From Siphonodentalium dalli (lineage: Eukaryota; Mollusca; Scaphopoda; Gadilida; Siphonodentaliidae): a DNA stretch of 64,000 bases. A program made the translations under genes and the position numbers. The stretch spans positions 128,823,605-128,887,604 of the forward strand of contig CP136064.1 of NCBI GenBank assembly GCA_032622095.1. Direction: 5' to 3'. Of the stretch, positions 3,675-61,984 are shown one piece after another. Below the pieces are notes generated by a model, which saw only the letters and a list, made by a program, of their open reading frames with translations, was not told the origin of the DNA and did no database searches. The stretch's first letter is position 1, and each line of letters begins with the position of its first letter.

Positions 3675-4590
3675 TTAATGTTATTTAAAAAAAAATCATA
3701 CGGTATACTCAATGGTACCAATTGTCGAAATGATACATGTACTGGTATGAAATGTCCAGAACCCTGGTGCGAAACATCTCTATGTCAAACTTCTATGGCA
3801 CGAAATGTCCAGCAACCTATTGGCTGTTCAGTCCATTGCACATTATAATTTATTTCCAAATAAAGGTAATACTAAATATTAAAGCAGCGTTTAGTGTTAA
3901 GTTCAATCTTGAACTAATTGTACATGTGATATAGTCACAGGGGCTTGTTGTAAAGAAAACAAGTAAAATTGAGGGTGCCACTTTATCAAACATCACAAAT
4001 GCATCAATATTCTATTGTTATACATGTAATGCTTTACAAACGCATGTTTTTGTATATATATTTTTACTTGTTTTCTTAACAAGCCCCTGTGGCCTCAGTT
4101 TAAGTATAGGAAGCCATGACTTATCTGCGGAAGAGCTCTGAATCTCTTGTTCACTCATTGTGTGACCACTGAAATCAGAGACGTGGCTAGATAGTCTCCC
4201 CATTGGGGAGGGGGGTCCACCTTGATACCTGTATGTTACGACAGCACCCCTTGGAAGGAAGTTTCCTACTGATGGCTATATCGGTCCAAAATTTGTTCGA
4301 ATTTTTGCCCGGTACGGCTTGTTATCAAACTACATTTGTACATGTACTTACCGTAGGTGAATATCACTTCAATTTGCCTTAAATTGAGTAATATAGTTTT
4401 AGGACATCACCAATCAGAGTAATATGATTTCATGACATCACGGATCCGAGTAATATGGCTTTACAACATGGCATAATTCTATTTCACTGTTAAATAATGC
4501 ATAGACAATGATTTTTTGTGATGTCACTCATTTGAAAGAGTTGTTCATAGTACACTGTTACTAAGAGGCAAACTAATTAATGTTATGGAT

Positions 4591-5201
4591 AGGGTATTAC
4601 TTGGTTGGTTTGATATTATAGGCCTGATTTCAGCCCTCAGTAACCTCATTTCAGCCTTCGATGTCAGGCTGATAGTGATATGAGGTTACCTTAGGCTGAT
4701 ATCAGGCCTAATATCAAACCAACCAAGAAATGTCCTCATTATATAACTAGCAGGGTGACCAGTCGTTGCCCAGGTTAATGCTCCCACTTTTTTACTCTGA
4801 CCCCAATACCATCACTGTAGACATTTATAATCTGCACCATTATGATGATTATCTTTCTCATAAGAAATAACAAATTAATAGATACGTGTAGGGTATTACA
4901 TGTACTTGGTTGGTTTGAATATATAGGCCTGATTTCAGACCCCTCGGTAACCTCATATCAGCCTTCGATGTCAGGCTGATAGAGATATGAGGTTACATCA
5001 GGCCGATATTTGGTCTAATATCAAACCAACCAAGTAATATCCTCTAAATATTATGTAACTAGCAGGGTCGTTACCCATGTTAATGCAGTGTGGTATTGTT
5101 TTGACCCTCCCACTTTTTGTCCCTTACCCCAATACCGTCAAGTGCTGTATACATTTCTAATCTGCACAATTATGTTGATTATCTTTCTCGTTAGAAATTG
5201 C
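4591..5201. repeat. Tandemly duplicated unit, each with a ~145 bp palindrome
   Basis: Two ~300 bp units follow each other (4591-4869 and 4890-5201). Each begins with a palindrome: AGGGTATTACTTGGTTGG and TAGGCCTGATTTCAG on the left are mirrored by CTGATATCAGGCC and CCAACCAAG on the right (4591-4735 and 4890-5043). Each palindrome is followed by the same single-copy-like tail: ACTAGCAGGGT, CCCCAATACC, then TTATCTTTCTC and AGAAAT. The duplication therefore includes the foldback and its flank. No coding potential is seen. Confidence 0.75.
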
Positions 5202-13559: not shown

Positions 13560-14191
13560 AATCATATTAGACGTCGTTGAGTGGAAGGACAAAGGCATAA
13601 TATTCGTAAATGATATATTCACCGAAGACAATAAGCTACATTCCATCGAAACTCTTAGAACTAAGAACAACATCACCACAAACTTTCACTTTACACGACT
13701 TAAACAGACAAATTAATAGGTTATTAAAACGGACCGATCAAACTGTCGTCAGGGTTCAAAATCTAATCATTCCTGAAAATATAGTATCACTACTTCAGAA
13801 TGAGCGAGGTTGCAGAAATTTTTACGATGAATTCATAAACGCGACTAAAATAGGACAATCATCGTCGCAAATGAAATGGGAAAATGAATTAAGATGTTCC
13901 CTTTACTGGAAACATATATTTTCATCACCCTTCAAACTATTAGTCGACACAAAACTACGCTGGTTTCAATACCGAATACTGACTAGAATTATAGGCACGA
14001 ACAGACTTTTGAACATGCGAATTCGGTCAGACGGTCTATGTCTCAGATGTAACGTTGCAAATGAATCAATTTCGCATATTTTCTTTGACTGTCCATTTGT
14101 AAGAACGTTTGTAAATACCACTCAGGCCTGGCTAGATCGCTATCAACTTTACTTCGCCTGTGCGCTGGGGGTACTATTTATAGAATGTTAA
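13560..14191 (+). mobile_element. LINE segment 3 (C-terminal domain of ORF2)
   Basis: The segment starts with VEWKDKGIIFVNDIF (~13578-13622). After a one-base slip near 13650 it runs open to TAA at 14189-14191. The stretch KWENELRCSLYWKHIFSSPF, LLVDTKLRWFQYRILTRIIGTN, and the cysteine/histidine cluster CLRCNVANESISHIFFDC (about 14038-14091) are typical of the C-terminal end of L1/Tx1 ORF2. The Cys-Cys-His-Cys group is probably the C-terminal zinc knuckle. The final residues FACALGVLFIEC look shifted relative to the family. No poly(A) tail is evident directly after the stop. Two 27 bp units with the phrase GTGCGACNCCGAGGC follow (14217-14264). Confidence 0.85.
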
Positions 14192-22294: not shown

Positions 22295-24197
22295 TAGCTC
22301 AACTTTACTTTGTAAAGTTTGAGCTATTGCCATGGCTTTGTCGTCCGTGTGTATGTGTGTACGTAAGGCGTCAACAATGCAGGCTACAGGTCGTACCTTT
22401 GGTCGGATCATTATGAAATTTGTCATAGCTGTTGACATCAACATTTAGACCAGATTATTAATTTTGGGATCATTCGGAAAAAAAACATGGCCGCCAGTGG
22501 CCATCTTGGATTTCAAAATTCAATCCATTAGCACGGGCTACAGGTCGTTCTGTTTGTCTGATAATCATGAAATTTGTCAAGAATGTTAATAATGACATGT
22601 GGATGGGAACGAGTCATTTTGGGGTCATTTCGGTCAAAAAACATGGCCGCAGCAGCTATTTTGGATTTTACTCTTTGTATGACTAAATCTTTAGCACAGG
22701 CTACAGGTCTTACCTTTAGTCTGATCATCGTAAAATTTTTCATGGCTGTTAAAATTGGAATGTAGATGGGAACGAGTCATTTTGGGGTCATTCGGACAAA
22801 AAATATGGCCGCCAGTGGCCATCTTGGATTTCAAAATGTAATCCATTAACACGGGCCACAGGTCGTACTGTTTGTCTGATCATCATGAAATTTGTCATGG
22901 ATGATAATATTGACATGTAGATGGGAATGAGTAATTTTGGGGTTATTCGGCCAAAAAAACATGGCCGCCAGCAGCCATCTTAGATTTTACTCTTTGTATG
23001 ACTAAATTCTTTAGCACGGGCTGCCGGTCGTACCTTCAGCCTGATCATAGTAAAATTTGTCATGGATATTAACAATGACATGCAGATGGGAACGAGTAAT
23101 TTTGGGGTCATTCGACCCAAAAACATGGCCGCCAGCAGCCATCTTGGATTTTACTCTTTGTATGACTAAATTCTTTAGCACGGGCTACAGGTCGTACTTT
23201 CAGTCTGATCATCATAAAATTTGTCAGGAATGTTAATAATGACATGTAGATGGGAACGGGTCATTTTGGGGTCATTCGGTCAATAAACATTGCCGCCAGC
23301 AGCCATCTTGGATTTTACTCTTTGTATGACTAAATCCTTTAGCACAGGCTACAGGTCGTACATTTAGTCTGATCATCATAAAATTTGTCATGGCTGTTGA
23401 AATTGGAATGTAGATGGGAACGAGTCATTTTGGGGTCATTCAGACAAAAAACATGGCCACCAGTGGCCATCTTGGATATCAAAATTTAATCCATTAGCAC
23501 GGTCCACAGGTCGTACTGTTCGTCTGATCATCATGAAATTTGTCATGGATGATAATATTGACATGTAGATGGGAACGAGTAATTTTGAGGTTATTCGGCC
23601 AAAAACATGGCCGCCAGCAGCCACCTTAGATTTTACTCTTTGTATGACTAAATTCTTTAGCACAGGCTACAGGTCGTACTTTCAGTCTGATCATCATAAA
23701 ATGTGTCAAGAATGTTAATAATGACATGTAGATGGGAACGAGTCATTTTGGGATCATTTGACCCAAAAACATGGCCGCCAGCAGCCATCTTGGATTTTAC
23801 TCTTTGTATGACTAAATTCTTTAGCACGGGCTACAGGTCGTACTTTCAGTCTGGTCATCATGAAATTTGTCAAGAATGTTAATAATGACATGTAGATGGG
23901 AAACGAGTCATTTTGGGGTCATTCGGCCAAATAACATGGCCGCCAGCAGCCATCTTGGATTTTACTCTTTGTATGACTAAATCATTCAGCGCGGGCTACA
24001 GGTCGTACCTTTAGTCTGATCATCATGAATGTTTCATGGCTGTTGAAATTGGAATGTAGATGAGAATGAGACATTTTGGGGACATTCCGACAAAAAAACA
24101 TGGCTGCCAGCGACCATATTGGATTTCCAAATTCAATTCTAAATCTTTCCATTCATTGCTCATCACACAAATTTAACTTCTTCTCAAAGTTGAGCTA
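22295..24197. mobile_element. 1.9 kb inverted-repeat element with eleven ~161 bp internal repeats
   Basis: Ends are TAGCTCAACTTT (22295-22306) and AAAGTTGAGCTA (24186-24197). At the left end the terminal motif folds on itself at once (AGCTCAACTTTAC...GTAAAGTTTGAGCT, 22296-22325). The interior is a tandem array whose units start with CATGGCCGCCAGCAGCCATC near 22486, 22642, 22804, 22960, 23123, 23288, 23452, 23606, 23770, 23932 and 24099, a mean period of about 161 bp. Each unit contains TTTAGCACGGGCTACAGGTC and GATGGGAACGAGTCATTTTG. Short open frames inside are repeat-driven. It is non-autonomous, and no transposase is visible. Confidence 0.8.
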
Positions 24198-34800: not shown

Positions 34801-37800
34801 GTTTTACATGGATCATACACACTGTGTAATATGTGTCCGCTGACAACCCAATCATTGCGACCGTGTTTGACCACAGTGAGTTAAACTCTGAACCGCTGAA
34901 GAGCCGTTGACTGGGACGAAGTCGTCAGGCCGCTTAAAATAATTATTCGCGCGATAACTCAAATGGTCGACGTTCTGTTTAAATCATTGTCAGTCTTCTA
35001 TTGATGTTAATACCAGTGATGGCCTCTTCCCCAACGCAGGGGGCTATGACCCCCAACATGCACGGGGAGCTATATTATCCCAGAAGCTACCGAATTCACC
35101 ATTGCATATTTCCTCGACAGGGGGTGTGCATGCAGCACCCTGAGTCCTGACACCCTACTTTATAAATATCGTAGTCATGTCTGTCGTGTCTGTTTTCTAC
35201 GAGTGATTAATCTAATATGCAGCAATTTATGCTATTCATATAATTATGAACATATTATACAGCTTTAAATTTAAATGCATGGTGTTGCTGTTTGTCTTTA
35301 TTCGGCGAAAGGGTTGCCTAGCTACGAGTTCCCAACTACGTCACCTTTCCTCTCTTGTTTTATACAGTTATACATGTATACGCAAAATTTACAACTATGG
35401 AATATTTAAGTAAAACATTATATTGTAATTCTTGCCCAGATAATCCCGGCTGATACATTCAATTAACTCCCTTAGTTATTGGAAGCTTTCGAGAACCAGC
35501 CCCTCCCCCAATCATGGATTATGGTCGAAAATGTTATAATTCAAGCTTGTGACAGTTAGGAGCTTGTTCAACCTTTGGCTTGAGAAACATATATATAAAT
35601 GGGGGGGGGGGGGGGTGTCACTCTTTTTAATTTCAACGCTGGACCTGCATTATTTTTTGGCGCTATGATGAATATTTGCAATCCCAATTGAATTAATGGT
35701 ATCACATGAGCTCGCTCTCAAATTATCAGAGAAATCTCAACAAGCCGGTATCATCCTATAAAAGAATTCTGCATATTTTATTTTGTTTTGGATGACCCTG
35801 TTTCCAAGAAATGACAGAAACAAATCAAGTATAAAATCGACCGGCTCTAATCCACTTTTCGAAATGAATTATAACTCGTGAAAAACAGCAACATATATCA
35901 GACAAGAATTACTCATTTCGGCATCCATGAAACATCCATGAAAGAAGACATGTTTATGACTGGCCTGAAATTTCTTGATGGCAGTTTGTTTGATAATGGC
36001 TTATAACTACTCACTGGTGAAATTGACCTCTCGCGCGGAGGTGATTAATTTTGTCAATTATTGGTGTGGCCATGTAAAATACATGTATTTTACATACAGA
36101 CATTACATGCATGTGTGTATCCACCCTTATGATCAATGATGTTTATAGGAAATCGGATTCTCAATCATGATCAAATATATCGTGTTTCGTGAACCATTGA
36201 CCACACCAAGAGCCAAAATTGTGCTTGATATCGACTTTTTTCCATCATTAACACACGCGAACATATAACTTCCTTTCACCGAATTGCAGACACAGAAGCG
36301 GAGAACGACGAGCACTTATCCCTCAATGGATGAAATATTATTGTTCGTGCAAAATATTGCCAGGAAAAATTAAAAAAAAATGAAAAAGAACGGTATTCGC
36401 TCTGTTAACATCTGACTGCATTATTACTACAATAATACACGCATGTTAATAATATGAGGTACCGCGGTATAATACTCTTACTGCACATGTATTACACTGT
36501 GGATTATATAGCTATCAACAGTGTATTGTAGCAAAAACACTGACCACTTTGTCAGAAAAAATACCAGTCAATTTTGTCGGCTAGCATGTGAGAGTATAGC
36601 TTGTTGATCAGACAACACAGAAATCCTTCAAATAAGTCTCCTAGCACTTAATGCCTTTCCAATTCACAACCATATATTCACAAACATGTTGACTAATATT
36701 GCATTGTCTGTCTATAGTGAACAGGGCACCGTGCTAACACAGATGAATACCGGGGATTTCTTCGGAGAAATCGGCATTCTCAACTTGGATGGTGGAATCA
36801 ACAGGTGAGTATACAATAAAATATTCGTCCTGAATAGGTATCATCAATAAACGTACATTCGATACCAGCAGGAAGTGCCGTAAAATACGGCATAATTCAC
36901 GGAGCATAACCACAGTGTAAACGGAGCATAACCACAGTGTAAACGGAGCATAACCACAGTGTAAACGGAGCATAACCACAGTGTAAACGTAGATATGATC
37001 GACATCCCAAACACGATATCTTGTACATAAGAATTAAATACACGGCGCATCTGTCTGCAATTTGTCTGTCGACAGAACAAGCGTACAGAACAAACTACAT
37101 TATCTAGTCTAACCCGCATTACAATATGAATGGGACATAACGGTTGTATATCCAGGGCCGTAAATGCTAGGGTGCATGAGGAGTGACAGTCCACAACCCC
37201 TTCAAGTACTCCAGGCAGTGTGCTTCCGTCGGGCAGTTGTCGGGCAAATACATTGTAACGTTTTCCATATGAAGATTTGTTTGAATTGAATTATTGATAA
37301 GGAATAGTGCCCGGCACAGTTGTTAAATAGTACATGTAAACATACACCATTGTGCCCAACAAAGTCGTAAATAGTATACATAACATTACAGCAGACCATG
37401 CATCGGAATGCAGCATACAAGCTCTATCTGTGTTGTCCAGTTCTAATTTTACTGTTGGTTTGTTTGTTTTTATTAATGAGATTACTGCTCACTGCCCTAC
37501 ACCACTGTGCAATTTATGATCAGAGACTAGTTTCGGTGTAAATTCCAAGGATGCTCATTGTGAATTATTCCATATGGTGAGTACAACTGGACCTGATGGT
37601 GGGGAGGGGACGTCTCCTAGAATATCCCCACCTCATGCTTCATGTCCGTCGTCGATATTTGTCTTCAGTCTATCCTGAATTATATAACGTCGGGCAATTT
37701 GACGGTGACGTCGGGCAAAGATACATTACACCACCTAATATGTTGTGAAAATATGGGCTTGGGTATACTGTCAACTATTGATCCGGGTCCAATAAACCGA

Positions 37801-40800: not shown

Positions 40801-43800
40801 TCCAATTTCGTAACACTAACGTTATAGACACAAAAGCAAAGAGGCAAATTGGGGGGGGGGGGAGTTGCGCTGTTTTTTCCGTCGCCAGCCAGAGCACGCA
40901 ATACTATCGCATACTATACGGTTGTGAAGTGTCTCAGCCATCGATGTAAATGAATGCATTTTGCAGCTTTTTTTAAAGGATTTTGATTTGTTAAAAAACC
41001 ATAAAGCTCTAGTTTTTTTCATGTGATGTACAAGATCTTCAGCTCGTTATGTTGGGATATAAGATTTATGAAACGTGTTTGATAAATTTGACTCACAACT
41101 CGTCTACGACTCGTTTTGAATCAAATTTATCAAACTCGTTTCATAAAATCTTATTTCCCAACATAACTCGTTGTTAGAGATCCTCTACATATATACGATT
41201 AGAAGCATGTCATCGAGAGGATAACTTAGGTATACTTACAGCACAAGTATCGTACGTTTTGTCGGATGTTCCAATGCACTCTAAACGTTGTTTGAATGTA
41301 TCGACCATTTAGAAACCATTGGGGCTATATAACAAAACATTTTATGCACATTCGCTATATATATATGCATGAAATGCAGTGTCGTGCATTCTCACTCACC
41401 GAACCTTCATCGGCGACTCACACTGAATTGGTTAAGGTCTCGTGTTTCCATTTTTAACGTATCCATGATCTCCAAAACGCTAATTTGTTTTTAAATATGT
41501 ATTTGCTCCATAGAAAGAAGAGTCATAATAATAAATACAATGTTGTGACCAAACAGAACTTACATACATGTATAGACACAACCGAAAAGTACAAAAGAAC
41601 AATCAATAGAATGCACTTGTCAATTCCGTACGGGGATGGGGGGGGGGGCTCAGTTTATGAGGCTCCAAGATACTATCAATCATGATGCGAGACACTCATA
41701 GGCGAACAAGTAGTGTTGAGAAACCTAAGCACCGCATAATTGCACTAAACACCCCATGAGGGCGCATGCGAGTATGCAATTCGAATACCCCATATATACA
41801 TGTAGTACTGTTTAAAGTCCTAACATTATTTATTTTTGTTGAGATAACTTTTTTCTTGAATCTATAATCCACATGTTTTGTATAAATTTTGTATTATTTG
41901 ATAACCATAAATTTTCTTTATTTATTCATCCGCATTATATACAACTGCTCAACCCACTCGCGGCCTATCCGTGTAAACCGAGGCATGTAAGTGTCCCGCA
42001 TAGGTCTATTGTTGTTTTTTGTCCATTTCGAGGAATCACAATCACGAATTGACCGAATATTGTTGAAATTAAATTATGATGGGAAAGCTCCACCGAGAGC
42101 TTCGCATTGATCGTCGCCTCGTATTAACTACCTGGATTATATATAATCCTAGCTGGTGAATACGACCCCTGGTGTCAACGGGACCTATCTAATAAGATTA
42201 TCCGGGTAAAACTACCCTTATATACAAATAATCAGTTCCGACGGTCCAGCCGTTTGATCGCCTATAGCCGGACAAACAAAAACAAAAACGAACAAACATA
42301 ATTGAGTTTTATTGGTACAGATAACAATTTCGTTCTGTCATGAGAGTGGCATTGTGTATTGAGCCACTTGTGTACAATGGCTATCGTCAGAGACTTGAAC
42401 TATCTCAGTGGCACAATAATAATAAGGTGCCTATTTTTCGGTCTCAAAGGGTATCTCTGTTGTCGGGGATAAAATGTGCGGCCATGTCACAATCACATCA
42501 CTTATAGTGTCAATGTATTATTTGGCGTACATAAATTGCGTACTCTGAACCCACGGATTTACCAGAATATAACAACCTTTCTCGCTCGGGATGGATGTGC
42601 ACTTGATGAACCATACCCGGTAAAGCTAAATCCCGGTATAATGCGTCCGACGAAATCTACCCCCATATAACATGGTATGTACTCTGTAGAAAGAAAATGT
42701 TGCACATATCCCTCATTGAACTGTACTGGTAGTCCGCTGCGCCATGTTTTGTTATCATCCTCCCCCCCAGTTTCGCCCGATTTTCACGTATTTTCTACTG
42801 ATGTACACCGGTTATTTTCCACATGCAGACAGGATTTCAACAAAATGTGTACAAGTTATATTGTCCATGCATGAGCTGCGTAAAACGCACTAAATTCCGA
42901 TATATATATTGGGAAAAGTTTACCTATCCCCTTTGAGTCGGTACACCTTATTTGTTTTACTTTAAACACGAGTACCATTATAGAGTTGTCGCCCGCTGTC
43001 GAGGGAGAAATTAAGATTTGTCACCCGCTCGAGAACGGAATGTCTCCCGAGGAGCGCAGCTCCGAGGGAGACAATCCGTTCTCGAGCGGGTGACAAATCT
43101 CAATGTCTCCCGAGAAGAAGGGCAACAACTATTTTGTTATCTGATTACTACAGAAAACAATCCTTGCCACCCAGACGTACGATGTTACACTGAGTCACGA
43201 GTGCTTTCTTTCCCGATTATTATTATATATTTTCAGTAACTTCGTATCGTCCTATAGGATTTCTGTTCTATAATCGATAGTCAAGCCGTTAAGCGTTTGA
43301 TAATCACCGTTTATTTACGATCATTTTGCTGGTTAAAACGTCAATATCGGTCCATGCAATGTAAACCAACAAGCCATATAGATATTATCCCCTTCTGCAA
43401 TTGAGCATATTCAATGTCATCTTGTTCGCGGAATTTATTCGCGATGTTCACTTAATTACAATCTTCCCCCGAAAGTTATTGGGTAGTTGTCGATATCATT
43501 AATGTACATTCATATATTTCAATGCTTCGAAGTAGATGGCGATCCCCACACAAAATACTTCTATAATCATAATGCAGACATCGCGGAGAGGTCTGATATG
43601 ATGATAAGCGTACAGGACCATTCGCGACAAACGTATGCACTACGTTGTCCACTAGCAAGCATGTATAACCAACCAACCTCAAGAGATCGACTCGTTCAAT
43701 CTTGTACCATAATGTCGACATGAATATATTGAATCACCGAAATGTTTCGATGTAAAAAGTACATAATAATGCTTGTCAGATAAAAGTATCAACTTAAAAG

Positions 43801-46800
43801 TTCGAATATTATTGTTCACTAAATATATGCAAATTAGCAAACACCCGTTTTTTTGCGAATCCGTGGGTATATAAGATTTATGGCCTTAGTACGCCGTAGT
43901 GATGTGAAATAGCTGAGGTACTGCAGTGTTTGTGTGTGTGCTTAGAGATATTCTTGCAATATAACATCAGGCGGGCGACAAAAACAATGTCTCCCGGCTC
44001 AGCGGGCGACAGTGTGATTTGTCGCCCGGCACGTGACAGGACATGGGCCAATCAAATAGGTATAAAATAGGGAGGAGGGTAACAATGTCTCCTGTCTAAC
44101 TGGACACTGCCATATGACCCCTACATCAGGTAAATATCCACACGGGTCATATGATCTTCGATCCCATTATGCTTATATTTCAACAATATTTGGTCATTTC
44201 GTAATTCGAGATGGACAAAAACACTAATATGCCTTTTTGGGACATGTCTATGCCTCTGATATAGGTCGCGATGCGGATGGGCAGTGCGATTAGTAAGATG
44301 CATAAAGACTTCTCAGGGTTGCCTTTTTCTATCAGCGTTAACGGCACATGCACGCAATCTGACTTCAATTTAATGCCCCAAGCTTGATGGAAAGTGAAAG
44401 AAAGACGTGATTCATACCGTGTCTCGAACATTAAGATATATATCAAATGGCGTCCATTTTAAAGATGTCCTCGTTTTCGTGGTGGTTATATCGTTATGTG
44501 GTGGTTATGCTGTGCATCTCAGTCTGGCCTAGACGAAGTTGACGCTGGGTGTTGAACACCGACATGTGCGAAATCTGGACAAATGTTCATGCTTGATCTA
44601 AGTTTGGGGGGCATCTAAATGCGCCATTCCGATCGTTTCATGGACATTTCGATAAGAATTTATATTTTTCACGCACATTTGAATCAATGAACACATCACT
44701 AGGCCAGTGTCTCGACCTGCTCTGATATATATAGAATATGTAGCTAGTGTCGTCGATTAACCCTTTAGCGTTCAGAGAGCCACAGAGCGCCCGGCCGCGT
44801 AGCGTCCAGAAAGCCTCAGAGCGCCCGGAGTGTTTTTTTTTCTTTTTTTTTCGGTCATAGTTTACAACAAAAATATTGCATTATAACACAACAAAATTAT
44901 CTTATTTTTAATGTAAACAATAACATGGATGTTACATTATTAATATTTAGTTTTTTGTTGGGTTTTGTGGTAGATTTTGTACAATTTAATCGACATTTCA
45001 TAATAAAATCGTAATAAAACGAAAACTGCGTCGTCGCGGTGCTATTTTTCAAGTCGACTAAATCAATGTACTCGCAATTGTGATCTGTGTACAGCCATCT
45101 AATATAGTTTTATTCTACAGATTTTTATTTACAAACTTTATTTTTATTTCTAATAGAATATTTATTTGACTTCTTTATGTTTTTGAGCTAATAATAATAT
45201 GCAACTGAATTAAAAAAGTCCAATATCATGATTTGACCAGCGAAGCAAATACAGTTCCGAATCAACTCCAAGACACCTGCGCTGTTGCAGTGTTGGTGTT
45301 ACTAGAAATGTTCTCAAATAAAACTGTCATTTGATTTGATTTTTTCCCTCATTCATCACAAGATCATATGAATAATATTTTATTTTAATACACTGAGTGA
45401 GCAATTTTGAGAATTCAATAAAGTTTTGATCGGAAAGTTCGACAACATTTTTGATTTTCTCTTCAGTTACACGTCCCAACGTCACGCCAATTCAGCCCAA
45501 TATTGTGGGCACGGGGATTGCCTGGATTAGTACCCAAATAAATTATGTTGTTAAAGCGCATTGACAAATACATAATCTTGAGTATATTCTCCACACTATA
45601 ATCGAAAAATACAAAGGAATGGACACAGGATTCAATCCAAATGGTTTATTTAAAAAACACTCCCGCCAAGAAACCCCCACTGATGACGTGCGCAAAAAAT
45701 ATGTACCTACAGTAAACACGTGTTGTTGGAAACTGGGGCGCACAATGGGGACTGTCATTTATCATGGCTATAACTATTACCTATTCGGTAATTCATAAAT
45801 GACATTCATTGCAAATTCAAACAGAATATATCTTAGATTTAGTATTAGTATCAATTGACCATTTATCGAATGTTGTCATTGAACTTATTGATCAGCTGAT
45901 GACGATGAAAAAACTAGGAACCTTGTCGACGTCATAGCAGCAATGATAAAATACTGTAGCACAAATTTAGGTGCATCGGCCGTTTTGTTCTCTCGTTTGA
46001 TTAATACAATTATTATTCTTCGCGCATTGACAATTACATAATCTTGAGTATATTCTCCACAACGTAATCTAAAAATACAAAGGAATTGACACACGATTCA
46101 ATCCAAATGGTTTATTTAAAAAACACTCCCGCCAAGAAACGCCCACTGATAACGAGCGCAGAAATTTGTACCTGCGAACACGTGGTGTTGGAATGTGGGG
46201 CGCACAATGGGGACTGTCATTTATCATGACTATAACTATTAGCCATTCGGTAATAAATAAATGACATTCATCGCAAATTCAAACAATATATCTTAGATTT
46301 AGTGTTAGTATCAATTGACCATTTATCGAGTGTTGCCATTGCACTTATTGATCAGCTGATGACGATGAAAACATCTCGGAACCTTGCCGACGTCAGCGCA
46401 ACAATGATAAAATACTGTATAGCACAAATGTGCATCGATCGGCCGTTTTGTAATTCTCTCGTTTGATTAATAAAATTATTCTTCTCCGCGCATTAACACT
46501 GCCAAATACTCAAGTAAATTGGCCATATGATGATGTGAAAAATCAAAGAAATGACATTGTATAACATTAGTTACTTTTATTTGAACACAAGAGTTCACGA
46601 GACAAACGCGGCTATTTTTAAATTGAAAGTGCGCAAATGCGCAAATCAATTCCGAATAGTGCTGCATTTACCGCGAATTACTTATCGGCACTGTCTTGTC
46701 ATTTTATATTGAATATGATTACTCAAAATTTCACTAAGAGAAAGCACTTTTCTCGATCGTAAGATACAATGTAGGCACGAAAGAATTGTTTAATTTATTA

Positions 46801-49800
46801 ATTGCACAAGATATGTGCGGTGCGAATGTATTGACTGCAATGTCAAGGTAAAAAACCGGTGCGCCAAATTGAAGTAAACAAAAAAACACGTGCGTTGTAA
46901 TCGATGGCACAATGTTGACTAGTTTGGACTAATAATGCAGTCAATTGTAACTGGATTTACACGTAACTATCCAAGAGTTGATAGGCCACTTGATGATTTA
47001 TGTTATGTTTCATTTCACCACGTAGCCATTGCTTAGCCTTAAAACATTAATAAATCACCCAATTTCGTGATATGGTTTTCCGACAGAGAAATTGAAACTG
47101 AAAATCACATTGATCTGTTGATAAAACAAAACTTACCCTTTGTTTGTTTATTATACTTCCATGTTTTAACATGGAAGTATATTGTAATTCTTCTGGCTTT
47201 TATTATTATTTTTTCTTTTCTTATTATTCCAATAACACCCTTATATCTCGGGAACGGCTGAACCGATTCACCTGCGGTTTTTTTCTTCAGTATAAAACCT
47301 TGGAAGATCTCGCTAAATAGCCTATTGAGAATTTCGTCCGACCCTTGACCTTCGGAGTTATCGCCATTTTGTTGATATTTGAGGTTTTTTCGCGACACAA
47401 AAGTAACTTGCAAAATCGATGTTTGAATTCTTATATCGTCAAAATGGCTTGACCGATTGATTTGAAATTTGGTACTTGCATAGCCATGGGGTATACGAAG
47501 TCGATGTATAAATAGGGAATTTGGTCTGACCTTGACCTTTGGAAACAACGCTCTTTATCTGTTTTATTGTTGTTCCAGTATCTCCTCCGAAACGGCGTTA
47601 GATATCGAGTTCGGACTTTTTTCATTATTTGCGCATTTATGTGTGCTATGTACCACCGAAAAATATAGGGTTCGCACTTCCGGTTTAAAAGTTCGCTACT
47701 GGTCCAATGATAAAACAACGCTCTTTATATGCAATTCAGAAGGGCTTGAGATATCGAGTTGGGACTTTTTGCATGATGTGCAGCAAACTCTGCGCTCTCT
47801 AATGATATATATAGTTAACGGATTTCACTTCCGGTTTGCGAGAACGGGCGTGTTGGTATGTATCTCAAATTGTTTTTGGTGCAGATTTTGATGGAATTTG
47901 GTGGATAGAATCTGTGGTTGCCGAGTATTACTATCAGCTACAGTGTCACCATACTGATATGTGTCTCATGAAAACTGACGCTTTATCAGGTGACACAATT
48001 TCCGTCATTGGCGAACATGGAAGTATCGAAATTACTGTGCAATTACATTTTCATTCTAGTTACATTTATTGTTATAAAATATAAATATAAAACCTACTAA
48101 ATATTCAGCATACTATCATGCTTGGGGAGGGGGATTCACAACTCTGATATTTTTTTACTCCCAGTACCCATCCATACAGATGAACATAATTTCATAAATC
48201 AAGAGCCACATAACATTTAGTAATAATACATGTTTTTCCCCAAAAACTTTGACGTCACCAGAAAGTTCTGTCGGATGGAGGTAATGACGTTAGTCATATT
48301 ACTGTTGGGTAAAGGGTTAAACTGTTTATGTCCGTGAGGGGGATTTGAGCATCTATTGGGCGAGGAGGCTTTGCCGAGTCCAATAGATGCCAAATCCCCC
48401 GAGCGGACATAAACAGTTTAGGAGACAACATTAGCTACATATTTTATTTATCCATCGCGCAAAACTTTCCCTTTGTGAAGTTAATCCGTCATATTCCTCA
48501 GTTGTACATTCGTTACTTCGATGATGCCCTTACGTTTAGTAGGTCAAGCAAACTAATTAGCATTCACGACGTGCAAAAACCGGATTGCAGCTTAGAGCGA
48601 AATAGTTCGTTGGGTTTTTTTTATAGTTATTCTAAGCTGGCTTGTACTAATGGTTTGTAGATGTTTTTGAGCGAAGACATATCCGTTTACGATTTTTGTA
48701 TCAATTGCGTCAATTATGACGATAAAAACGTCCCAAAATCACATTGACGTCATTTAGGTCGGTTGACGTGCCTAGTTACCTGCGCAATTTGATTATGCAA
48801 TTACGTCATGAAAGTAGTACTAACCTAATAAATATAGAATATGTAGCTAGTGTCGTCGCTTAAATTGTTTATGTCCGTGAGGGGGATTTGAGCATCTATT
48901 GGGCGAGGCTCTGCCGAGTCCAATAGATGCCAAATCCCCCGAGCGGACATAAACAGTTTAAGCGATGACATTAGCTACATATTTTATTTATCCATCGCAC
49001 AAAACTTGCCTTTTGTGAGGTAAATCTGTCATTTTCCTCAGTTTTACATTCGTTACTTCGATGACGCCATTACATTTATTAGGTCAAGCAAACCAATTAG
49101 TATTCATGACGTGTGAAAACCGGAGTGCAGCTTAGAGCGAAATAGTTCATTTGCATTTTTACATAAATTATTATAAGCAGACCTTGTTCTGATGATTTAT
49201 AGATGTTTTAGAGCTAAAACATATATCATTTTACGAATTATTTTAGTGAATTATACACGATAAGAACGTTCTGAAATCAGAATGACGCCATTAAGGCCGG
49301 TTGACGTCCCTAGTTACCTGCGCAATTTGCATATCAAATTACGTCATAAAAGTAGTACTAACCTAATAAAGCTACGTTGACCTAATAAAGCTACCTTGAC
49401 GTAATAAACGTAACGTTTATTAGGCAGGCTTTATGTAGGCAATAGAGGTAGTGAGCGGTGGATAAAGATAGATACGTTGACCTAATAAAGCTACATTGAC
49501 GTAATAAACGTAACGTTTATTATGTAGGCTTTATGTAGGCAATAGCGGTAGTGAGCGGTGGATAAATCTATTTTTTATTTGTTTCTCACCCCATATCGTT
49601 CAACGCAAGAACTGCTTCAATCTGGTATCGAATAATTAATTTTCATGCCATCCCTATTTTCATCACAATGGGTCAATTAATTGTCTTGCCACGAATTTCT
49701 AATGTAGGCATTTGGATGCCAGTCGCTGGGTGGATTTGATCGCTCAAATATTCCGAGAGCAAATATAATATTCACAGATTTCTTTTCTTTCCTATGTGTA

Positions 49801-52800
49801 TTATGCTACATATGAATATTTGTGGGTGGCTACTCGAATAATATATAGAGGATATGAAATGAGTGTTTCTCTCATATGATATTTATGAAACGAGTCTAAG
49901 AATTTTCAGTTTTCTCGAGCCTCCGCCCTCCGGCGAGAGAAAACTGAAAATTCGTGACGAGTTTCATAAATATCATATGAGAGAAACACGAATTACATAT
50001 TCTATTTATCATATGACACCTATAAATTGATTATGATGTCCAAAACGCACACAAATCACTAAATAGCTATATGACATCGGCAGCAAAAGGTTAATGTGAC
50101 GTCACTTCATTGCACCGGAAGCCCAATTACACCTGGTGAACTAGCAGAAATAATATGCACGCGAAGATATAGTGCGCTATTCTGTTCTCAGTTTGTGACA
50201 TTATATCGTATGTTTATTAGATAAATACGAATTACATATTCTATTTATCGTATAACAATGTCCAAAACTATATATTTCAAGATTATAATTGCGAGAATTT
50301 CGGCATCGCGTTGATTGACGCGCACGAATTTGACCTGCATTTAGTTAGAGATACGGCTCGGCACCGGCTGCCATTCAGCCAATCAAAACACACTTTTTGT
50401 CAACAAACCAATCAAATTATCGGAAGGTGATATGAACTAGTAGTTCATATGAAATTTATTTATGACATACTTTCCAACGTAAATAATGATTGAGTCATAA
50501 GATAAACATATTTATCCACCGCTTACTACCTGTATTGCCTACATAAAACCTGCCTAATAAACGTTACGTGTATTACGCCAAAGTAGCTTTATTAGGTCAA
50601 CGTACCTTTATTAGGTTAGTACTATTTCCATGCCGTAATTGCGTATGCAAATTCCGCAAGTAACTATGACGTCTTTGTGATTATGGGACGTTTTTATCGT
50701 CCCTAAATCACCGCAATTGATACAAAATTGGTAAACGGATAAGTGTTTGGCTCTAAACATCTATAAAGCATTAGTACAAGGCCAGCTTAGAATAACTATA
50801 AACAAAAACCCAAGCGAACTATTTCGCTGTAAGCTGCATATTTTATTTATCCATCACACAAAACTTGCCTTTTGTGAGGTAAATCTGTCATTTTCCGCAG
50901 TTTTACATTCGTTACTTCGATGACGCCATTACATTTATTAGGCCAAGCAAACTAATTAGCATTCATGACGTGGGAAAACAGGAGTGCAGCTTAGAGCGAA
51001 ATAGTTCGTTGGCCTTTTTACAGTTATTATAAGCAGACCTTGTTCTGATGATTTATAGATGTTTTAGAGCTAAAACATATATCATTTTACGAATTATTTT
51101 AGCGAATTATGTACGATAAAAACGTTCTGAAATCAGAAGGACGTCATTAAGGCCGGTTGACGTCCCTAGTTACCTGCGCAATTTGCATATCAAATTACGT
51201 CATTAAAGTAATACTAACCTAATAAAGCTACGTTGACATAATAAAGCTACATTGACGTAATAAACGTAACGTTTATTAGGCAGGCATTATGTAGGCAATA
51301 ATGATAGCGAGCGGTGGATAAATATAGAATATGTAGCTAGTGTCGTCGCTTAAACTGTTTATGTCCGTGAGGGGGATTTGAGCATCTATTGGGCGAGGTT
51401 CTGCCGAGTCCAATAGATGGATTAGATGCCAAACCCCCCGAGCGGACATAAGCAGTTTAAGCGACAACATTAGCTACATATTTTATTTATCCATCGCACA
51501 AAACTTGCCTTTTGTGAAGTAAATCTGTCATTTTCCTCAGTTTTACATTCGTTACTTCGATGACGCCCTTACATGTATTATGTCAAGCAAACTAATTAGC
51601 ATTCATGACGTCAAAAACCGGAGTGCAGCCTAGAGCGAAAAAGTGCGTTGGGTTTTTTTTATAGTTATTCTTAGCTGGCCTTGTACTAATGGTTTATAAA
51701 TGTTTTAGAGCGAAAACACATATCCGTTTACGAATTTTGTATCATCGAAGTAACGAATGTAAAACTGAGGACAATTACGGATTAACTTCACAAAAGGAAA
51801 GTTTTGCGCAATGGATAAATAAAATATGTAGCTAATGTTGTCGCCTAAACTGTTTATGTCCGCTCGGGGGGATTTGGCATCTATTGGACTCGGCAGAGCC
51901 TCGCCCAATAGATGCTCAAATCCCCCTCACGGACATAAACAATTTAATCGACGACACTAGCTACATATTCTATATTTACCCACAGCTCACTGCCTCTATT
52001 GCCTACATAAAACATGCCTAATAAACGTTACGTTAATGTAGCTTTATTAGGTCAGCGTAGCTTTATTAGGTTAGTACTACTTTCATGACGTAATTGCATA
52101 TGCAAATTGCGCAGGTAACTAGGGACGTCAATCGACCTAAATTACCCCATAGTGATTTTGGGAGGACGTTTTTATCGTCCATAAATCACAGCAATTGATA
52201 CAAAATTCGTAAACGGGTGTGTTTTCGCTCTAAAACATCTATCACATCTAGAATAATAATAAAACAAACCCAACGAACTATTTCGCTCTAAGCTGCACTC
52301 CGGTTTTTGCACGTCAAGAATGCTAATTAGTTTGCTTGACCTAATAATCAAAATAACGAATGTAAAACTGAGGAAATAGACAGATTTACTTCAAAAAAGG
52401 CAAGTTTTGTGCGATGGATAAATAAAATATGTGGCTAATGTTGTCTCTTAAACTGTTTATGTCCGCTCGGGGGATTTTGCATCTATTGGACTCGACAGAG
52501 CCTCGCTCAATAGATGCTGAAATCTCCCTCACGGACATAAACAGTTTAAGCGACGACACTAGCTACATATTCTATATATTCGCCATCTGTACAAAAGATT
52601 CGCGACCTCATCAGCGGAAACGCGCGAATTTTACCAATTCACCAGCGACCCGCACTTTTGTTTTCTGTACGCACAGGACCTGTTAATGTCGTACGCTAGG
52701 AGGCGCCTCAACGCAGTACACAAAGAGAGGAATCGTAGCTCTCAGAATGTCAACAACAACAATAATCTCAGAGATAAGATCCCTGATTTACCAGCTTTCC

Positions 52801-55800: not shown

Positions 55801-58800
55801 TTCAAGACAGGGCGTTTCTAGATGACATTTACGAGAAAATTCATGTTGAAAATAATATGGACCGATCAGAGTCGCCAATCTTAGGTCTGAGTGCACACTA
55901 CATCCCAGAAATAACCGTTACTGGGATGGATTCTGAAGCACCTGAGTCTAAACTCCCTGCATGTGAACCAATTCCAGAAGCAGCAATGTACCCAGATTTA
56001 AGGTAAACATATCACAAACCGCTTTATCATCGAAAGAAATGTTCTTAGAAGCATTGTCCAGTTTGTCACGAGGGCTACATTTACTGTGTGGAAGTATGAT
56101 GCACCGTATTAATGTAACTGATCATGAATGGCATTTATGTAGAATTGTTCTTAATATATGTCACAGTTCACGAGTAATGTCATTCACAGCAAATAACCAC
56201 ATTGTTTCTGATCAAACTTGTGCTGCTCACTTGTTCGGGATGCAATACTATTATCACATACGATATGTCACATCACAATGTATACTCATGTACGTACATA
56301 TCCCTACGGTTAATTTCTATTCGAAGTGGAGATACGTGCAATATTTCCTGTTATTATTACACACCGAAAGGTGCTGTGAATGTAACAGGAATGTGGAATT
56401 CCAGGTGCACCGAAGTGATCAAACGACAATCGGAAGTGTGCAATTATTTCTCTTAACAATTTACTGGAGTTGTATTTATACTTTAACTTTACAATTGGCT
56501 CTATTGACCACAATAATTGCCATGGATAGTTTTCACCAATGTTCCATTCAAATGACATTGCTTAACAGTTTGTTGTTATTATCCAAAATAATAAGCATCC
56601 ACCATCATTATGTCGGCCATGGCTTGTGGTGATGCTTATCACGAAGGTCAATTGTATTATCATTAGGAAAGTCATAGAGAATAGTTGTCTCGCGACAAGT
56701 GTAGGAGTAGTGTGAAAATGTTTTGGCCTGTGTTTTTCAGAAATCAAGCCACCTACTATTACCTTGCAATGTAATACTTGGTGTACTCAACTACCACCAA
56801 TGGTTAATTTACGATACATTTAGTGGTGTTGCATAGGAAATTGTGTCGTCGAATATTCCTCTTGATTTTGTTCTCATTTTATAATTTCAAGGTCGTGTAA
56901 GAATAATGATATAGATATATGTACACACTGTTGACAAATAAATTACCTGACATATTGTGCTGATTTTTCAGGCGGTCCAGTTTTCCGCGCAGTGCCACAG
57001 AGACCGTGAAAGTGCCGAGTAACCGTTCCAGCATTACACAAACTGCTTCTGATGAACTATTCTATCAATCTTCTACCACGTCTCCAAACAATTGCTCACA
57101 ATGCCTTGATAAACAATCGAAATCAAGCCTTAGTCAGCAGAAGAGTGATCGTGCCAAAAGGAACTCTCTCTCTTCCTCTTGCGAAAGCAATAAGAGCGGA
57201 CATTCTGCAGATAGTTTCCCCCACTGTAATACAACAACAAGCTCGGATAGAGCACCTATGATCAACTCTGTTATTTCGGACGAACCAGCTAAGATCGAAC
57301 AATTTGAACTATGCATGCGACAAATGTTCGACGCTCTCGGTGATTCTGTGCAAAAGCAGCTGGTATGTATGCTACAAGTACTACTAACAGGGCCGTTCCT
57401 TTTAAGGAATCCCTAGGGATTAACGGTGTGGTGGTTTGTGATTTCGGAAAGGTACAGGGCGAATGCAAAGTTTGTTAATGGGCGACAGCGGAGTGAGGTA
57501 TGAACATGTCCATTGTGGAACATTAAACAAACAGAAACTTAATCACAGACATAATGGGGTGGGGCATAATTATATCAACATGTATTGAAGGATATGTAAC
57601 ACTTTAACTATTGAAACATGAAAAAAAAAATTTTAATTCAGGTTGATCATCTTCGTGCGATTGTGTCAGATTTTTCGGACAGAGTATGAGTGTGGATATT
57701 TTACTGAGCTATTCAAGCATAACCGCTGCTGAGAAAATTCATCTATCATTTTCTAATTTCTAATTTATAGCTTCTTTGTACAACCACCCTCTTTCCATTT
57801 CTCTTTATACTATGTTTTATACCACAAGTCGATATTCGTAACCTGGAATGGTCACGTGTCCCAATGTGTGTACAGCGAACTCCAACGTGGACTTCTATTC
57901 GAGAAATAGTTCGCTCCTAACACCCGCCCACAATAACAAACATATGCATAGTGCTTATGAACTCCACGCAATACAATACATTGTCAGAAAAGACAGCGTG
58001 TTAATTTGCATACCAGTTGTAACTATCACATTCAAACATAACACGTCATCATCACTGTTCTTCTTCTGTACAAAGCGATATTATTTTGATAATTCGCGAG
58101 TCAAAACTATGGTAAAATGCATTCCTGCCCAAAATACAGATAATTGCGTCGACAGTATATATTACGTATAAAAAGTAAAATTATATACTACGTTATATTT
58201 ACAGCTAAAACAGATATTGTATTTTATCCATCACCTTTGTCGTCAACTATATATATATATATAAAGGCTGCAAAATAAACCATGGCTTTATTTTAGCACG
58301 TGCTAAAATAAAGCAAGGACGGCTACTTCAACTATCATAATCCCATTTTAACAGATTTAATAGATGTTAACGACTTTTAAACTTTGGCGATGGATAAAAA
58401 CAATATCCATATATTTTGACGAGATACAAGGCTTATTTTTCGCTCGCTAAAGCTCGGTCCTCCGTTTGCCGAATCATACTCGCGAAAATAAACCTTGTAT
58501 CTCGTCAAACTATATGGATATTCTATATATATGTTTGCGTATATATCGATGTTGAGTTTCGAAAAAAGATGTACTGGGCAGCTGTAATGCCTATAAAATT
58601 GTTATCACGACATACGTACTTCACGTGCAAACCACACTCACACGATTCGTGTTAATGGGCGTGGTTTTGTTCTCAGCTGATGACTATATTGTGTACATAA
58701 AACGTTCTGATATGTCTCATTTATCGAGATTTATCAGAATATTTCATCAGTATGAAAATATCTTCGGGCTCACTCGTCTAGTTTCCGAATGTCCAGTCGC

Positions 58801-61079: not shown

Positions 61080-61826
61080 TAGCACGTATGTCGTCTTCTT
61101 CTTTTTTTTTCTTTTTTTTATTGGAATAAACAGACATCAATGAAGGAATGTAAATATAAACAGAGGTACACATTATTATATATCAAGTCACATTCTTCTA
61201 ATTCGCTCACATCTCGCTCGCTTCATTTACACGTCTTTCGTACACCATATGCACTCCCAGTGACTGACATGTAAATTGGGATAAATCGAATATATGTTAA
61301 TTTTAATATATTAATTCAGATTTTAAATCTTTGAACTTTGTTCCTGTGTACGGCGTACATGTGTACGGCGTATGTGTACGACATCTAACCATAGACGGCA
61401 TGGTGATATTGGCGGGGGTATCGTATTTCCGGTTATAATAACTAAGTGAGTTTTAGAATTGATGAAGAGATAATTTCCAGGACACTCAAGTTGATTTGTG
61501 TTGACTTGTGGGTACATGTTACACGTGTAAAGCCTTTTCTAAAAAGGAACCAGTTTTTCGAAAATTCTTCTTGTTTCGATTGGCATCGTGCGGTATACTT
61601 CTCACATTGGTATCTATAATTCAACTCTATGTCGTCTTCTTAATGAAGTATTACATCTAGAGCAGTATACATGAGAAACTAGGTATAACATTGGAGGCGT
61701 AAATACGGGTCCTTGAGTTGAAGGTATGTGTCTTGTGTTGGGCTAAACGGAATATAAACACTCTGAATCGTTATTGGAAATAAATTCCATGTTACCGATC
61801 AATATTGTGGATAAGTATACTGTATA

Positions 61827-61911
61827 AGGGTGGATACACACATGCATGCAATTTCTGTATGTAAAATCTATGTATTTTACATGGTCACACCAATCATTGA
61901 TAGCATTAGTC
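61827..61911 (+). repeat. ~90 bp dispersed repeat, copy 3
   Basis: TAAGGGTGGATACACACATG, GTATGTAAAATCTATGTATT, TTACATGGTCACACCAATCA. It matches the 36037 copy in inverse and the 34748 copy directly. Confidence 0.7.
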
Positions 61912-61984
61912 GCCTGCGCGCGATCGGACAGAAGAATAGATGTCTCGTTCGCCCCACTTCTAAAAATAGAATCTTTGGGGTCTA

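Follow-up and report, generated by a model that had tools for sequence, protein, structure and literature searches.

What kind of element built the array of long hairpins that lies in a 64,000-nt stretch of the genome of the scaphopod Siphonodentalium dalli (contig CP136064.1, positions 128,823,605 to 128,887,604; hereafter the window, to which all positions below refer)? The array, made of hairpins (H1–H5) and AT-rich bodies (B1–B7), spans positions 44730–52576. A preliminary description, made from the letters alone, had placed it at 48317–52582; the array is indeed there, but its true left edge is at 44730, because a 3.56 kb insertion splits H1. The same description rightly recognised five long hairpins with near-identical arms, and bodies in both orientations, some of them truncated. 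On balance, we lean towards the view that each unit of the array is one non-autonomous element of ~634 bp, moved by a foreign enzyme, most likely an HUH-type Rep/helicase, and stacking upon its own copies at TTTAT.

The five hairpins are 152–161 nt long (~155 nt for H1, once the repeated TTAA is subtracted) and, when aligned, are 93.4–98.0% identical to one another. Folded as single-stranded DNA in pieces of 128–150 nt, they have z-scores of -11.2 to -16.7, and for each of them 0 of 200 shuffles is as stable. H1 is in two parts, 48317–48444 and its last 31 nt at 44730–44760, separated by the insertion at 44757–48316, which has TTAA and CCCTTTA at both ends. In the alignment, the corresponding site is an undisturbed TTAA in the remaining array hairpins. 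The ends of the bodies are equally distinctive. Within the window, TTTATCCAYCGC occurs 21 times with up to two mismatches, against 9.8 expected (standard deviation 3.2), and 0 of 100 shuffles reaches 21; 11 of these matches are ends of array bodies (8 exact), and two more bound a solitary element, F3, that is described below. An exact 18-mer from the array hairpin had no match in a single scan of viral contigs.

The make-up of the unit can be read directly. From 5ʹ to 3ʹ, its ~634 bp comprise TTTATCCAYCGC, the AT-rich body, GCGATGGATAAA, a hairpin of ~150 nt with the apex CTCG..CTCG, and ATTCTATA. The sequence ahead of the hairpin, GCGATGGATAAA, is the inverse of the unit's 5ʹ end, and there is a palindrome near that end, at +45 to +65. 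The hairpin had been thought to be internal to the unit; it is the unit's 3ʹ end.

Do body and hairpin belong together? The answer comes from one copy, E2 (48833–49466, minus strand; 634 bp), which lies within the body of an older copy, E1, on the same strand. E2 is complete, with body B2 at 48985–49466 and hairpin H2 at 48833–48984. The E1 body, B1, is interrupted mid-sequence exactly where H2 ends 3ʹ. Its first 94 nt are displaced to 49473–49566, past the 5ʹ end of B2, and are followed by six nucleotides, TCTATC (49467–49472), and then by E2; the remainder of B1 is at 48445–48832, next to the first part of H1. Sister copies supply the empty site, which reads GTCAACGTAGC TTTATTAGG in B2 and B4, GTACC in B3 and CAGCGTAGC in B7. 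The occupied site in E1 reads GTCAACGTA TCTATC, TTTATCC (the 5ʹ end of B2), body, hairpin, ATTCTATA, and then TTTATTAGG, such that TTTAT immediately follows the 3ʹ end of E2. Because E2 interrupts B1, and the empty site can be read from sister copies, body B2 and hairpin H2 moved together as one 634 bp unit. What appears to be a 100 bp tandem duplication (49465–49566) is the displaced 5ʹ end of E1.

The right half of the array contains units that stand end to end. H3 (51323–51483, minus strand) and H4 (51822–51974, plus strand) end in CTATA directly ahead of the 5ʹ ends of B4 (50844–51322, minus strand; TTTATCC) and B7 (51975–52424, plus strand; TTTACCC), respectively. Since the 3ʹ ends of these hairpins abut the starts of other copies, the start of the element resembles the site that E2 took in B1. 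More generally, the readable 3ʹ flanks start with TWT in 7/7 cases (the five array units and two further elements, F2 and F3), with the border uncertain by two bases because of the ...CTATA end. Insertion of a non-autonomous element of hairpin and body beside and inside its own copies, as first suggested, is borne out by E2 within E1 and by these abutting ends. The body of H3, B5 (51484–51740, minus strand), and that of H4, B6 (51741–51821, plus strand), are both truncated on the 5ʹ side; B7 has internal deletions, and H5 (52425–52576, plus strand) forms the right edge of the array. B4 is a complete body without a hairpin. Its 3ʹ end is joined, at AGCTxCA, to B3 (50511–50838, plus strand), the 5ʹ part of a body in the inverse orientation. 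This joint is as a single deletion at short homology would leave it, which would explain the missing hairpins.

How might such an array grow? We infer that the enzyme comes from another element and is most likely an HUH-type Rep/helicase, as in Helitron2/Helentron elements. It would recognise the asymmetric repeats together with the hairpin at the 3ʹ end, and insert a single-strand copy before T-rich sites. A copy that landed in front of a resident copy would form a head-to-tail pair, and one that landed in reverse would form an inverted half; nested copies would also arise. With TTTAT at its own start, the element would supply new target sites with each copy, and copies would pile up. Subsequent deletions would have truncated several of them.

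Is this plan confined to one family? A scan of the window found 19 hairpins, 9 of which have a CTCG-N-CTCG apex when read from body to hairpin: H1–H5 and four others, F2–F5. Since five of the nine form one family, we count them as five types. The motif CTCG-N-CTCG occurs 20 times on both strands, 10 times with a flanking stem that scores at least 30 (F2 is read twice among these); apart from CTCG and its complement, no tetramer of the 256 has more than three such stems. F2 (49844–50506, minus strand) and F3 (58222–58527, plus strand; 306 bp) share the plan of the array unit, with unrelated bodies. F4 (41046–41190, plus strand) and F5 (42985–43134, minus strand) are hairpins that share the apex and a 3ʹ foot. 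The fold z-scores of F2–F5 are -11.1 to -15.7, and no two types have similar stems, apart from a 33 nt stretch common to F2 and F4.

The 3ʹ foot is YTCTAYA, a motif generalised from the same five cases in which it is counted: it occurs in 5/5 hairpin types, at -1 to +17 nt from the outer stem, with 0.012 expected per 30 nt, and in its strict form, TCTATA, in four of the five. GATAAA stands 7–9 nt ahead of the stem in the array unit, F2 and F3, as does GATAAC at 12 nt in F5, and the array unit, F2 and F3 also have a 5ʹ TTTATC in common. In the array unit (B1, B2 and B4), F2 and F3, a perfect palindrome with a stem of 10–15 lies 45–93 nt from the 5ʹ end. Stems of at least 10 are found in 23 of 1596 sliding 167-nt windows, these elements included, and five of the seven such palindromes of the whole stretch lie within these elements.

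Two of these elements have surroundings of their own. At 50215–50257, there is a second F2-type GATAAA zone (near 50240) with TTTATC 20 nt further on, and without a long hairpin; F2 is perhaps two stacked copies, the first of which lacks its hairpin. F5 lies within a stretch of ~2.4 kb (41921–44306) bounded by inverted repeats of ~150 bp (41921–42090 and 44153–44306), and may therefore belong to another element.

Which known transposons are built in this way? The nearest known kind appears to be the non-autonomous Helitron2/Helentron elements, and, to judge from sequence, the array unit would work like one rather than be one. Helitron2/Helentron elements have a 5ʹ T and asymmetric inverted repeats of 8–15 bp, the 3ʹ repeat lying immediately before a hairpin (PMC3627910). 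In Helitron2, this repeat is about 20–30 bp from the 3ʹ end, and the hairpin is short (PMC3627910); in the HINE of a mite, the distance is 38–60 bp (PMC4067079). HINE elements prefer T-rich targets and form tandem clusters (PMC4067079), elements of this type show self-insertion and joined ends (PMC5148889), and HINEs have been described in an oyster (Cg_HINE; PMC7492417). Like Helitron2/Helentron elements, including HINE, DINE-1 and Cg_HINE, the elements described here have a 5ʹ T and asymmetric inverted repeats that are short, the 3ʹ one standing directly before the hairpin; these repeats are seen in the array unit and in F2 and F3, but were not found for F4 or F5. Hairpins or palindromes near both ends are shared as well, as are tandem and self-inserted copies, and the one nested insertion, next to TTTAT, may represent a T-rich target without a long target duplication. 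Hence, the view that a unit of obligatory hairpin and body has no explanation among known transposons was too strong: as far as these accounts describe it, the Helitron2/Helentron (HINE) plan combines a terminal hairpin with asymmetric inverted repeats, and does without a long target duplication.

There are also differences. The 5ʹ palindrome lies within +45 to +93 and excludes the repeat (B1, B2, B4, F2 and F3), whereas that of Helitron2/Helentron elements, as described, includes the 5ʹ repeat; the constant CTCG..CTCG apex of the array unit and F2–F5 is a further departure. Because the length of the hairpin, the 5ʹ palindrome and the constant apex depart from the Helitron2 plan, we do not file the array unit as a member of that group. 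The likeness to canonical Helitrons (Helitron1) extends to a 3ʹ hairpin and the absence of long terminal inverted repeats. However, the ends are TTTATCC and ATTCTATA rather than 5ʹ TC and 3ʹ CTRR, the hairpin is far longer, and asymmetric inverted repeats are present. Foldback elements such as Tetris and Tm1 share long palindromic DNA and arrays. In contrast to these, the unit has a long palindrome only at its 3ʹ end (in E2, the 5ʹ end is the TTTATCC of the body), and its ends, TTTATCC and ATTCTATA, are not inverted copies of each other; we have therefore dropped the label "foldback", in its usual sense, that was first given to it. The family may already bear a name in a repeat library.

Several observations weigh against the reading of the unit as one Helentron-like element that stacks at TTTAT. 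From the 3ʹ repeat to the end there are ~150 nt, compared with roughly 20–60 in the published accounts of Helitron2/Helentron elements, whose hairpins are several times shorter. The left junction of E2 is not clean, as the target GC is replaced by TCTATC. TTTAT flanks E2 on both sides, which is compatible with a 5 bp target duplication. Nonetheless, TTTAT stands at the 5ʹ ends of B1, B2, B3 and B4 (TTTAC in B7) and recurs, inverted, before the hairpin (GGATAAA); because of this recurrence, we read it as the element's own sequence. B3 and B7 do not retain an intact 5ʹ palindrome. For F4, neither a 5ʹ end nor GATAAA was found, and the 5ʹ end of F5 is likewise not established: a search of the DNA upstream of F4 and F5 for a 5ʹ repeat gave nothing that exceeds shuffles, and of two candidate 5ʹ ends of F5, near 43787 and near 44068, neither was settled on. 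Taken by themselves, the 13-nt inverted repeats match shuffled upstream DNA equally well (best 12/13; shuffles also 12); we deem them convincing because of their fixed position and their recurrence across types. Finally, no transposase gene, Rep/helicase partner or autonomous copy came to light in the window, where the Pfam screens covered six long open reading frames (ORFs), four ORFs inside the insertion that splits H1, and one putative exon. The six long ORFs matched only pieces of reverse transcriptase, far to the left of the array.

The departures from Helitron2 bring up the alternative that has fared best, namely that these transposons, with their giant 3ʹ hairpin, form a group of their own and are moved by a non-Helitron enzyme, which could be another of the HUH type (that of Replitrons, for example) or an undescribed one. 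It is suggested by apex and foot, which are constant while the stems differ. Moreover, the sequence before two of the five readable 5ʹ ends resembles the element's own 3ʹ end (TCTATC/TCTATA for E2; GATATTGTA/GATATTCTA for F3), which recalls the direct end repeats reported for Replitrons. The other three 5ʹ ends (E1, F2 and B3) have no such direct repeat. According to a review, Replitrons have direct end repeats of 5–11 bp and target duplications of 2–8 bp, and are without inverted repeats (PMC10741241), which the array unit has. We found no description of 3ʹ hairpins of this length in the accessible portions of the literature on related elements, which is not proof of absence. In its fullest form, this alternative holds that the elements are an undescribed group of the single-strand type, distinguished by a 3ʹ hairpin of giant size with CTCG..CTCG at its apex and YTCTAYA at its foot; that shape, apex and foot, rather than the stem, are recognised; and that the element's own 5ʹ end is the preferred target, hence the self-stacking. 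We regard the separate group as unlikely, both in its simpler form and in this one.

Could the array instead have grown by local amplification of one element, through unequal exchange, rolling-circle concatemers or inverted duplication? In 10/10 pairs of units, the hairpins differ less than the bodies, with means of 4.7 and 11.4%, respectively (these pairs lack independence, and two of the bodies, B5 and B6, are incomplete). This fits either constraint on the hairpin or local homogenisation. In addition, unit 4 (B6–H4) is closest to unit 1 (B1–H1), a relationship obtainable by one inverted duplication. However, for none of the seven bodies is the closest relative in the alignment a neighbour, although the margin for B5 is below 1%. 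B2 and B4 are 94.6% identical, and B1 and B6 92.6% over 81 sites, whereas neighbours are 81.0–90.1% identical and thus 10–19% different; a gap at the joint of B1 in this alignment, where 6 nt too many had been trimmed, does not affect these identities. Simple tandem duplication is disfavoured because no body is closest to its neighbour, and the array is not a single, simple segmental duplication; the suggestion of a satellite in the preliminary description is not supported. The outer ends of E2 are also clean inside E1 (for the left junction, see above). We consider local amplification improbable and rank it below the single-element reading. Ranked below that reading as well, and the least probable of all, is the idea that two miniature elements are at work independently, namely a body bounded by inverted ends of 12 bp and a palindromic element with a preference for insertion adjacent to it. 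This might be suggested by the inverted ends TTTATCCAYCGC of the body by itself, by B3 and B4 without hairpins and by the hairpins of F4 and F5 without a recognised body; but body and hairpin of E2 moved jointly, the hairpin lies on one constant side of the body in F2, F3 and all array units that have it, and the single deletion that fused B3 and B4 accounts for the hairpins that they lack.

Other repeats are also present in the window. The insertion that splits H1 is piggyBac-like in its TTAA and its CCCTTTA/TAAAGGG ends; it contains a 466 bp tandem repeat (45556–46498) and a 30 nt palindrome (47152–47181), and Pfam searches with four ORFs inside it gave no match. Two adjacent hairpins at 4573–5036, with arms CTTGGTTGGTTTGA and without the CTCG apex, represent another foldback-like repeat. 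A tandem array at 22380–24137 has units of ~164 bp and higher-order periods of 318 and 482. Inverted repeat copies at 36024–36130 and 61824–61930 are 86% alike and have a near-perfect central palindrome, ATGTAAAATACATGTATTTTACAT. Pieces of a reverse-transcriptase gene (Pfam RVT_1 and zf-RVT) lie at 1022–1579 and 13610–14191. The channel intron in which the preliminary description placed the array is putative: the host gene was checked with one putative exon, which had no Pfam match and one PDB match that is meaningless (E 1.8).

What is the significance of a giant hairpin at the 3ʹ end of otherwise unlike elements? If several unrelated bodies carry such a hairpin, and its apex and foot are fixed, what the enzyme reads must be a shape and two short motifs. 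If true, this would be a testable rule for transposons of the rolling-circle type. An element that targets its own 5ʹ end, if that is indeed what occurs here, would explain how dispersed copies become local arrays, and would provide one route toward satellite DNA.

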